64,000 nucleotides of DNA from an uncultured bacterium. Its GTDB lineage: Bacteria; Cyanobacteriota; Vampirovibrionia; Gastranaerophilales; Gastranaerophilaceae. Of this stretch, positions 26,356 to 59,433 are shown one piece after another; the stretch's first letter is position 1, and each line of letters begins with the position of its first letter. The translations under genes were made by a program, and so were the position numbers. Under the pieces are notes generated by a model. The model was not told where the DNA came from and made no database searches. It saw only the letters and a program-made list of their open reading frames with translations. The stretch lies in the NCBI GenBank assembly GCA_902763805.1, contig CACWTN010000002.1:62001-126000 (forward strand). The letters run 5' to 3'.

Positions 26356-26437
26356 ATCTGCCTCTATTACCCTAAAATTAGGCATATTTGCCTTAAAAAG
26401 TCGCATCTAATGTCCACAGAAACTATATACTTGAAAT
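26356..26437. other. Gap before the tRNA block
   Basis: AT-rich sequence, no gene or repeat seen. Confidence 0.4.
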
Positions 26438-26470
26438 AAAAAAGAAGGCAGATAAACCGCCTTCTTTTTT
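26438..26470 (-). terminator. Terminator of the tRNA transcript
   Basis: GAAGGC (26444-26449) pairs with GCCTTC (26459-26464), flanked by A6 and T6. It lies just downstream (minus direction) of tRNA-Tyr. Confidence 0.75.
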
Positions 26471-26473
26471 ATT

Positions 26474-26556
26474 TGGGCAGGGGTGGATTCGAACCACCGT
26501 ACCCTCTCGAGAACAGATTTACAGTCTGTCGCCTTTAGCCACTCGGCCACCTACCC
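26474..26556 (-). tRNA. tRNA-Tyr (GTA)
   Basis: 83 nt with a 7-bp acceptor stem (GGGTAGG with CCTGCCC), long variable arm, GTTCGAATC T-loop and anticodon GTA in GACTGTAAATC. The 3' CCA is not encoded. Last of three minus-strand tRNAs. Confidence 0.95.
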
Positions 26557-26574
26557 ATATTAAGTTTTAAAATT

Positions 26575-26646
26575 TGCCTTTGACGGGATTTGAACCCGTG
26601 GCCTCTCCCTTACCAAGGGAGTGCGCTACCCCTGCGCCACAAAGGC
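26575..26646 (-). tRNA. tRNA-Thr (GGT)
   Basis: 72 nt. Acceptor stem GCCTTTG with CAAAGGC, anticodon stem CTCCC/GGGAG and loop TTGGTAA giving GGT, T-loop TTCAAAT, discriminator A. CCA not encoded. Its 5' half is copied, with an insert, in the tandem repeat just upstream (26647-26883). Confidence 0.95.
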
Positions 26647-26883
26647 TTGTCCCATCTATGTTTTAGTTGTCATTGCAGTATTTTTGAGACCCAAGGGAGT
26701 GCTGCTACCCTCCCTCCATTCGAAACGATACTTAATCGTTTCTCTGGAGTCCTTGCCACAAAGGCTTGTCCCATCTATGTTTTAGTTGTCATTGCAGTAT
26801 TTTGAGAACCAAGGGAGTGCTGCTACCCTCCCTCCATTCGAAACGATACTTAATCGTTTCTCTGGAGTCCTTGCCACAAAGGC
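26647..26883. repeat. Tandem ~119-bp repeat made from a tRNA-Thr 5' half
   Basis: Two near-identical units, 26647-26765 (119 bp) and 26766-26883 (118 bp), plus the first 10 bp of a third. On the minus strand each unit starts with the first bases of the adjacent tRNA-Thr(GGT) (GCCTTTGTGGC) and resumes its D-stem to anticodon-loop part (GGGTAGCAGCACTCCCTTGG), with a ~43-bp insert between. The insert holds a hairpin: GAAACGAT (26722-26729), loop ACTTA, ATCGTTTC (26735-26742), with outer CTCCA/TGGAG pairs. No T-arm half is present, so neither unit is a functional tRNA. Confidence 0.85.
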
Positions 26884-26910
26884 TTGTCCCATCATAATTC
26901 TTTAAAAAAA

Positions 26911-26982
26911 AGCCGGTAATAGGAATCGAACCTACAACCTACGGTTTACAAAACCGTTGCTCTACCGTTGAGCTATACCGGC
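26911..26982 (-). tRNA. tRNA-Thr (TGT)
   Basis: 72 nt. Perfect acceptor stem GCCGGTA/TACCGGC, D-arm GCTC...GAGC, anticodon stem ACGGT/ACCGT with loop TTTGTAA giving TGT, T-loop TTCGATT. CCA not encoded. First of the three tRNAs in the minus direction. Confidence 0.95.
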
Positions 26983-27238
26983 AACAAAATTTATCTTATA
27001 GTAAACAATATTGACTGTCAAGAGGTCAGCTCAAAAGACAAAATCTAACGATAAGTTTCTTGTATAATTTAAAGATTTTCAGTAGCCGTTCTCAAAATTA
27101 TAATACTTTTTAGTAGGTTTATTACAGATTAATATAATATTATTTCTACCTTGATTTTTGCTATTAAAATATTCATGATATCATTTATACAGATAGAAAA
27201 TTAAAGAATTTTAAATCGTCAGTATTGGAGTTTAGAGA
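26983..27238. other. AT-rich gap between tRNA block and polysaccharide cluster
   Basis: No gene seen. It must hold the promoter of the tRNAs (minus) and of the glycan operon (plus). A TTGATT at 27151-27156 and a palindrome ATGATATCAT at 27175-27184 are visible, but no well-spaced -35/-10 pair. Confidence 0.35.
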
Positions 27239-50023: not shown

Positions 50024-50833
50024 ATGAAAAAGATTTTCGGGATATTTTTGGGAGCTGTGTGTTGGGTTAACGTCCTGACTGTTTGTGCTGCAGAAAAGTT
50101 TGAAGTTCTTCCCGACTTACCTGAACCGTTGTCGGCAGCACAGGCTTCATCAATTTCAACAACAGCTGATTCCGCCAATACGTTAACACAAAATGTCGGT
50201 CAGGAACCGAATTTTATGTCAGTAATCTTTTCATTAGTATTTGTTATTCTGCTTATCTATGCAACGGGAATTATTTATGCGAAGCTCAACAAAGCGGGAC
50301 TTAAAACCCTTAAAAAACACATGGGTGATACGGATGATTCCAGAGTTACCGTAATTTCAACAACGCCTTTAGGCAGTAACAAAACACTGCACGTTGTTGA
50401 ATTGAACGGAAAACGCATGCTTCTCGGAGCTTCTGCAAATTCAATTGACCTCATTAAAGATTTGGGAACATATCCGCCCCCTGAAGTCGAAGAAGGTGAA
50501 TTCTCAAAAATTGAAATTCCGAATATAAGAATTCCGAAAATTGAAATTCCAAAGATAGAATTTCCCAATATTGGTTTTACAAGAGCATCCAAAAAGGCAG
50601 ATACTGAGGAAAATACTCAGACTGAAGTTAACAATGAAAAGGAATATGATGAAGATTTTGTTATCTCGGATATCTATGAAGATAATTCGGATGGCATTAT
50701 AGATAAACTGTTTACTCCGCCAAACCAGCAAAAAGAAGATGCTGCCGAAGTAAAACAGGAAAACGGCTCAAAAGAAAAAGTTCTGCATTCTGTTGACCCT
50801 GATGACTATGCTTTGTATAAAAAGTATCTGTAG
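50024..50833 (+). CDS. fliO: FliO-like flagellar export protein with IPKIE repeats
   Basis: 269 residues. Signal peptide (1-23), then a membrane helix (~66-88, VIFSLVFVILLIYATGIIYA) and the FliO pattern VTVISTTPLGSNKTLHVVELNGKRMLLGASANSIDLIKDL (~110-150). FliO helps assemble FliPQR at the flagellar export gate. After it comes a short repeat IEIP-NIRIP-KIEIP-KIEFP-NIG (~167-187) and an acidic cytoplasmic tail, longer than usual for FliO. No other flagellar genes are here. Followed by a NeuB-like gene 31 nt later. Confidence 0.75.
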   Translation: MKKIFGIFLGAVCWVNVLTVCAAEKFEVLPDLPEPLSAAQASSISTTADSANTLTQNVGQEPNFMSVIFSLVFVILLIYATGIIYAKLNKAGLKTLKKHMGDTDDSRVTVISTTPLGSNKTLHVVELNGKRMLLGASANSIDLIKDLGTYPPPEVEEGEFSKIEIPNIRIPKIEIPKIEFPNIGFTRASKKADTEENTQTEVNNEKEYDEDFVISDIYEDNSDGIIDKLFTPPNQQKEDAAEVKQENGSKEKVLHSVDPDDYALYKKYL

Positions 50834-59055: not shown

Positions 59056-59433
59056 ATGAGTGTAGAAGCAATTTTAGAATCAATTGAAAAATTAACATTA
59101 TTAGAAGCTGCTGAATTAGTTAAAGCTATGGAAGAAAAATTCGGCGTATCTGCAGCTGCTCCTGTAGCTGTAGCTGCTGCTCCGGCTGCTGCTGGTGCTG
59201 CTCCTGCTGAAGAAGCTGCTTCTGAAGTTAACGTTATCTTAGCATCAGTTCCTGCTGATAAGAAAATCGCAGTTCTTAAAGAAGTTCGTGCTATTACAGG
59301 TCTTGGCTTGAAAGAAGCTAAAGATTTAGTAGACGGCGCTCCTAAGGCTGTTAAAGAACAGGTTAAGAAAGAAGATGCTGAAGCTATCAAGAAACAACTT
59401 GAAGCAGCAGGCGCTACTGTTGAAATCAAGTAG
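59056..59433 (+). CDS. rplL: Large subunit ribosomal protein bL12
   Basis: 125 residues. N-terminal dimerisation domain, alanine-rich hinge (~36-55) and C-terminal factor-binding domain [35 protein letters not shown] before ATG. Second gene of rplJ-rplL. Confidence 0.98.

Follow-up and report, generated by a model that had tools for sequence, protein, structure and literature searches.

A tandem array of split tRNA-Thr copies as a probable local case of small hairpin elements at tRNA genes of Candidatus Gastranaerophilales

Organization of the tRNA-Thr Locus

The stretch of DNA analysed here, referred to as the window, comprises 64,000 nucleotides and, like all sequences used in this work, derives from a draft metagenome assembly. 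A pattern scan of named genomes places its host in Candidatus Gastranaerophilales (Melainabacteria), a group of non-photosynthetic relatives of cyanobacteria. A tRNA operon on the minus strand of the window reads in the order promoter-like sequence, tRNA-Thr(TGT), two repeat units, tRNA-Thr(GGT), tRNA-Tyr and an inverted repeat. The units, of 118 and 119 bp, are thus located between the two threonine tRNA genes; they are detected by Tandem Repeats Finder as an array at 26636-26893 (period 118, 2.2 copies, 98% match) and are 99-100% identical to each other in a repeat search of the window, differing by one substitution and one indel. The features of the locus, in the direction of the operon, are the following:

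26993..27021, minus strand: putative sigma-70-like promoter of the tRNA operon, TTGACA-17-TAAGAT (consensus scan)
26911..26982, minus strand: tRNA-Thr(TGT), first gene of the operon (ARAGORN; Rfam 76 bits)
26884..26893, minus strand: leader copy GATGGGACAA 5′ of unit 1 (repeat search)
26766..26883, minus strand: unit 1 (118 nt), made of a tRNA-Thr(GGT) 5′ copy, core A, a D-arm/anticodon 5′ copy, tail and leader copy (repeat search, Tandem Repeats Finder)
26873..26883, minus strand: segment X of unit 1, GCCTTTGTGGC, copy of tRNA nt 1-11 (exact match)
26829..26872, minus strand: core A hairpin of unit 1, AAGGACTCC-AGAG-AAACGAT-TAAGT-ATCGTTT-CGAAT-GGAGGGA (model R1, 65.6 bits, G000:C2:88829-88874; fold)
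26808..26828, minus strand: segment Y2 of unit 1, sense copy of tRNA nt ~16-36, GGGTAGCAGCACTCCCTTGGT (repeat family D3)
26776..26791, minus strand: degenerate boxA-like tail of unit 1, TGACAACTAAAACATA, with weak likeness to TTGAMAAYTRAATA of other arrays and rRNA operons
26766..26775, minus strand: leader copy GATGGGACAA 5′ of unit 2 (repeat search)
26647..26765, minus strand: unit 2 (119 nt), with its parts ordered as in unit 1 (repeat search, Tandem Repeats Finder)
26755..26765, minus strand: segment X of unit 2, GCCTTTGTGGC, copy of tRNA nt 1-11 (exact match)
26711..26754, minus strand: core A hairpin of unit 2 (model R1, 65.6 bits, G000:C2:88711-88756)
26690..26710, minus strand: segment Y2 of unit 2, sense copy of tRNA nt ~16-36 (repeat family D3)
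26657..26672, minus strand: degenerate boxA-like tail of unit 2, TGACAACTAAAACATA, with weak likeness to TTGAMAAYTRAATA
26647..26656, minus strand: leader copy GATGGGACAA 5′ of the real tRNA-Thr(GGT) (repeat search)
26575..26646, minus strand: tRNA-Thr(GGT), the intact gene imitated by the units (ARAGORN; Rfam 72.7 bits)
26473..26557, minus strand: tRNA-Tyr(GTA), last gene of the operon (ARAGORN)
26434..26474, minus strand: 16-bp inverted repeat, likely terminator of the operon (repeat search, I1); the consensus scan that gave the promoter does not list it

Each unit consists, on the minus strand, of GCCTTTGTGGC, a 44-nt hairpin insert (AAGGACTCCAGAGAAACGATTAAGTATCGTTTCGAATGGAGGGA), GGGTAGCAGCACTCCCTTGGT, an A/T-rich tail and GATGGGACAA. 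The first of these segments is identical to nt 1-11 of tRNA-Thr(GGT) and GGGTAGCAGCACTCCCTTGGT corresponds to nt ~16-36 with a single base change. An exact 11-nt match to the tRNA start together with a 13-nt match to the D-arm/anticodon region, occurring twice beside the parent gene, is not due to chance. The leader GATGGGACAA, shared by the units and the real tRNA-Thr(GGT), forms part of the repeat, and therefore the unit includes duplicated sequence from upstream of the gene. A first-pass annotation of this DNA had described two units beside tRNA-Thr(GGT), each carrying its 5′ part split by a hairpin; the present analysis arrives at the same anatomy, and the limits of the units (26766-26883 and 26647-26765) add up to the 26647-26883 that had been reported. 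That the copy number might be an assembly artefact had been raised there. Since the two copies differ and the array sits inside a 175-kb contig, they do not represent a simple assembly duplicate. At the same Thr locus of relatives, one unit is found in G005, G008 and G011, and two in G021. Elsewhere in the window, short tandem repeats occur at 50498-50565 and 59150-59220 (15/30-bp and CTG-rich).

Two Types of Hairpin Cores

The insert of the window units belongs to a family of hairpin cores that can replace one another and come in two types: core A, AAGGACTCC-hairpin-GGA.GG, and core B, ACTCTGCCG-hairpin-GAGAGG. A covariance model of the insert (R1, core A) finds 7 places with E < 0.001 in the genome of the window, and detects core A in 54 of 65 genomes of the genus and in 119 of 286 genomes of the order, distributed over 23 of 50 genera. 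Core B is present in 185 of the 289 genomes sampled from the class: by our own count of the listing, 184 of the 188 genomes of the window's family carry it, along with one genome from another family of the order, and none was found in the other families sampled. Cores are present in nearly all sampled genomes of the window's family (Candidatus Gastranaerophilales), mostly in tandem and 5′ of the tRNA genes for Pro, Leu, Ile2/Met, Val, Lys and Thr. A search of 37 relative genomes located the window insert repeatedly 5′ of other tRNAs, namely Pro(GGG), Pro(CGG), Leu(GAG), Leu(TAA) and Ile2/Met(CAT). The search near other tRNAs that the first-pass annotation had proposed thus locates the insert in front of many of them, and its proviso that the insert might exist nowhere else does not hold, as the insert recurs in the same genome and in relatives. 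Many arrays end contigs, and they may therefore be a cause of broken assemblies.

These observations bear on the simplest account of the locus, namely that a duplicated tRNA 5′ end gained a hairpin by chance and was copied in tandem by slippage, with no wider meaning. The near identity of the window units and the variable number of tandem copies among relatives fit such a history, and tandem duplication, also put forward earlier, does account for the copy number. However, many different tRNAs across the family show this core with the same point of insertion and the same tail motif, which contradicts slippage as an explanation of anything other than the last doubling in the window, and as a full account we regard it as very improbable.

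Rfam holds no family for the window or for 25 loci, where only tRNA, 5S, RNase P and SRP RNAs reach gathering scores (on the window stretch, only tRNAs do), and no paper on such repeats was found among the open-access literature. A population of hairpin elements at tRNA leaders across this family is apparently undescribed.

Insertion Sites and Exchange of Cores

Among 91 core A copies with readable surroundings in an unbiased pattern scan, 69 are situated 5′ of a tRNA on its strand, at a distance of up to 700 bp, 7 flank the 3′ end of a tRNA in antisense orientation, and for the other 15 there is no tRNA nearby. Sense insertions are found mostly after tRNA nt 11 (with TGGC or AGC 5′ of the core) and sometimes in the D-loop, and antisense insertions lie ~10 nt from the tRNA 3′ end, as seen at tRNAs Met, Glu, Tyr and Arg. 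At the loci inspected by eye, the tRNA stays intact thanks to a direct duplication of about 20 to 107 bp. In a similar arrangement seen in two genomes (L046 and L075), core A is located in a broken 5S rRNA copy adjoining an intact 5S; the broken copy at L046:400-1249 (minus strand) also holds further hairpin inserts. Core A is likewise found in interspersed repeats unrelated to tRNAs, and core B can be nested inside core A elements. Two further observations concern composite repeats. Upstream of tRNA-Leu(TAA) in L230 and L234, the loop of core B contains another palindromic repeat (GCGGAAACGAGC...CAAGAA). L138, L144, L146, L165, L170 and L182 represent large GC-rich intergenic interspersed repeats, often GCGGATTT...AATCCAAGA, some of which contain core A while others do not.

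The cores are at the least exchangeable, and probably mobile. Identical 45-nt cores occur with up to 6 different left flanks, some are common to three genera, and the core A of the window has an unchanged copy at tRNA-Leu(GAG) in another genome. At tRNA-Leu(TAA), either core A or core B occupies the same point of otherwise similar units, and the unit is present in about half of the genomes of the genus (judged by match span); in other genomes of the genus the same promoter is followed immediately by an empty site. The same element with unrelated flanks, together with empty sites in relatives, is what a transposable element would leave. Identical cores across genera, antisense insertions at tRNA 3′ ends, insertions outside tRNAs and empty sites thus suggest a very small mobile hairpin element. 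Of the explanations offered earlier, the nearest is that of a palindromic element which entered a copy of the tRNA, since the core reappears between unrelated flanks at numerous places, both in tRNAs and outside them. The idea of repeated integration is right in part: it agrees with the fixed insertion sites, but no integrase or att logic was found.

Several candidate movers were considered. The units, of ~90-240 bp, carry no integrase and have no room for a gene. A reverse transcriptase was rejected, because RVT_1 gives no match in the genome of the window, nor in the high-copy genomes G067, G071, G162 and G128. The Y1 (RAYT) transposases show a suggestive correlation and nothing further: they occur in 6 of 10 core-bearing and in 0 of 8 core-free genomes, but some core-bearing genomes lack them, and the Y1 genes of the window's genome and of relatives are flanked by palindromes that differ from the cores (e.g., TAGGTCGGGTTTTAACCCGAC), a core-like sequence being found beside a Y1 gene in G128 only. 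The genome of the window has a single REP-type Y1 transposase gene between inverted TAGGTCGGGTTTTAACCCGAC palindromes (L283:1540-2082, C1 ~323.5 kb).

Antisense Segments and Predicted RNA Folds

Most units at Pro, Leu, Ile2/Met and Lys end with an antisense copy of the D-arm of their own tRNA (nt ~8-24), Thr and Val units being the exceptions. Complementarity to the local D-arm beats the best of 50 shuffles in 92 of 131 units, with a mean score of 21 versus 11. Where Pro tRNAs have GCAGTTTGG in place of GCAGCTTGG, the antisense usually changes accordingly, and the Pro(CGG) and Pro(GGG) units of G007 have their constant part in common but differ in the antisense, each fitting its own tRNA. The window's Thr units have no significant antisense in the shuffle test; by eye, it is better preserved in the Thr unit of G005. 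The antisense also covers the short tRNA segment which the core replaces in the unit, so it cannot stem from pairing within the unit alone. Two readings of its origin remain: it may be a copy of the target made during insertion, or it may be maintained by selection for base pairing.

The antisense might also act as a guide, the RNA or single-stranded DNA of the element pairing across the insertion point of an intact target and directing insertion there, in a manner reminiscent of group II introns and bridge-RNA elements. In most arrays, and for both orientations, the antisense does reach across the insertion point, and insertion positions are fixed; yet once it had jumped, a guide should still fit its former target, whereas each copy fits its present one. 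Leader duplications of such length would also be unexpected for a system of this kind, and the cores could be linked to no nuclease, reverse transcriptase or recombinase. We consider a guide function improbable.

When unit and tRNA are folded together, the D-arm is predicted to pair with the unit in 53 of 77 cases, versus ~17 of 77 with shuffled tails, with a mean gain of 8 kcal/mol. The acceptor strand is captured as well, and since this also happens with shuffled tails, it follows from the 5′ copy alone. The 5′ copy and the antisense are thus predicted to rearrange the tRNA; these are equilibrium folds, and co-transcriptional folding and proteins may prevent the rearrangement. As for the cores, the G.U at the base of the core A stem is kept in 65 of 123, and core B stems vary with compensation while retaining the tandem G.A in 13-14 and a G.G mismatch in 26 of 65 distinct cores. 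An asymmetry of G.U over A.C pairs was also considered as a sign of selection at the RNA level. The first count gave 52 versus 7 by a procedure biased against A.C, and fairer counts were weaker or mixed (24 versus 8; core B, 15 versus 7); core A in fixed register is uninformative for this asymmetry, and these counts are not used as proof.

The folds bear on the possibility that the arrays are cis-regulatory leader RNAs, in which the antisense arm would pair either with the unit's own sense arms, leaving the tRNA free, or with the nascent D-arm, blocking the cloverleaf. Invasion would start from the unpaired stretch complementary to the tRNA segment replaced by the core, and the core itself would act as a sensor or as a protein-binding site. 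Such a leader would explain why the antisense fits the local tRNA, including the segment missing from the unit, why predicted folds trap the D-arm far more often than with shuffled tails, and why the G.U, tandem G.A and G.G mismatch of the cores are conserved amid compensatory changes; a promoter upstream and a boxA-like motif downstream would also be in place. It is harder to reconcile with the patchy occurrence within the genus (about half of the genomes at Leu(TAA)), with the Thr units, in which good antisense is absent, and with the normally essential single tRNA genes that lie behind arrays. Besides, units of the same architecture also occur outside tRNA genes and, in antisense orientation, at the 3′ ends of tRNAs, places in which this form of control would be senseless. 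We deem regulation of this kind unlikely, although it is the main rival of the model favored below. In its most developed version, a new class of leader RNA with tandem 5′-mimic units, a matched D-arm antisense with a toehold, an exchangeable sensor or protein-binding core and boxA would tune individual tRNAs across the family, a proposal that we hold to be unlikely.

The boxA-like Motif

Many units end in TTGAMAAYTRAATA just 5′ of the leader. With up to 1 mismatch, this boxA-like motif is found 0-18 nt (median 8) 5′ of the tRNA in 63 of 110 arrays, as compared with 13 of 71 tRNAs without a core and ~0 in shuffles. The same motif (TTGACAACTGCATA, TTGAAAATTACATA, TTTGAAAATTGCATA, TTGACAACAGAATA) is present in the 16S leader and/or the 16S-23S spacer of those genomes of the family whose rRNA is assembled, which are the places of boxA in rRNA operons (PMC10250234). 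The rRNA operon of the window's genome was not found in its assembly, and the 16S leaders of relatives were compared instead. By sequence the tails of the arrays thus agree with the boxA of the family's rRNA leaders and spacers, and those of the window's Thr units agree poorly (TGACAACTAAAACATA). A boxA pattern gives 4 matches in the window's genome versus 3 for the reversed control, hence no enrichment, 3 of the 4 being in leaders of tRNAs with core B units. It seems plausible from its sequence and position that the motif helps the polymerase through untranslated arrays. The first-pass annotation misses both the antisense D-arm copy and the boxA-like motif, which are clear in relatives and weak or decayed at the window locus.

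Some tRNA-Tyr, Gly(TCC) and Leu(TAA) loci without a recognised core also have a boxA-like motif shortly 5′ of the tRNA. One leader unit upstream of tRNA-Leu(TAA) (L221) has antisense and a boxA-like tail around a core-less structured body that resembles the Pro/Leu(GAG) units.

A Model for the Arrays

The reading that we favor, and consider probable, is that the window array is a local case of small exchangeable hairpin elements which colonize tRNA genes across the family, its copy number having then changed by tandem duplication. A hairpin core of 40-50 nt, A or B, sits in a truncated 5′ copy of the tRNA, in the D-stem after nt 11, and the duplicated leader plus nt 1-11 keeps an intact tRNA downstream. 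In the Pro, Leu, Ile2/Met and Lys arrays, which are the majority, the inverted D-arm copy would allow the unit to close as a hairpin from which the core protrudes as a side branch. The arrays are probably transcribed, since they are placed between the promoter and the tRNA. The boxA-like motif just 5′ of the tRNA may assist the polymerase along the untranslated leader, with RNase P expected to cleave where the real tRNA, the last of the series, begins. The element would be kept harmless by duplication of its target, by closing on itself and by boxA, and tandem duplication would multiply the units.

The mobility of the elements, the transcription of the arrays, the processing of the transcripts and the notion that arrays are tolerated rather than needed are inferred. 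Selection for an RNA function could account equally well for the exchange of cores at a fixed site and for the conservation of boxA and antisense. On the folding predictions, moreover, the antisense would hinder the tRNA in its own folding, a conflict not expected of a harmless passenger.

What the sequences do show is the anatomy and distribution of the units, the exchangeability of their cores, the complementarity of the antisense and the boxA-like motif. They reveal minimal hairpin elements that occur family-wide and have tRNA-gene leaders as their preferred home. Most copies carry a target-matched inverted piece, which makes them a tractable case of how a gene-less 45-nt element spreads and is tolerated in essential RNA genes. 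If the antisense were functional, it would represent a new way of controlling individual tRNAs.

Comparison with Known Systems

One of the closest parallels is found in the REPINs and REP elements and their RAYT (Y1) transposases (PMC3116915, PMC3733652). Like these, the cores are very small, non-coding, palindromic, intergenic and present in many copies and tandem clusters, and were likely moved in trans. Unlike them, the cores prefer tRNA genes, in which their position is fixed, and come with the target copied in inverted form, and they differ from the palindromes that flank the Y1 genes of the family.

The small dispersed repeats of Nostoc, which PMC3116915 mentions, are very small mobile repeats of cyanobacteria, tens of bases long, which form hairpins and are nested in other repeats. 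By description, the cores resemble them in size, hairpins, nesting and the related phylum of the host, whereas the tandem tRNA leaders, the target-matched sense and antisense parts and the boxA-like motif set the arrays apart.

The tail TTGAMAAYTRAATA invites comparison with the boxA antitermination signals of rRNA leaders (PMC10250234, PMC4807359), as in many units it matches the 16S leaders and spacers of the same family; a boxA in function would also bind NusB-S10 and prevent Rho termination. The tail differs in being located 0-18 nt 5′ of a tRNA and repeated with each hairpin unit. Finally, the arrays share with T-box riboswitches a structured leader that could interact with tRNA, but they precede the tRNA gene itself, are complementary to the D-arm and have no Rfam match.
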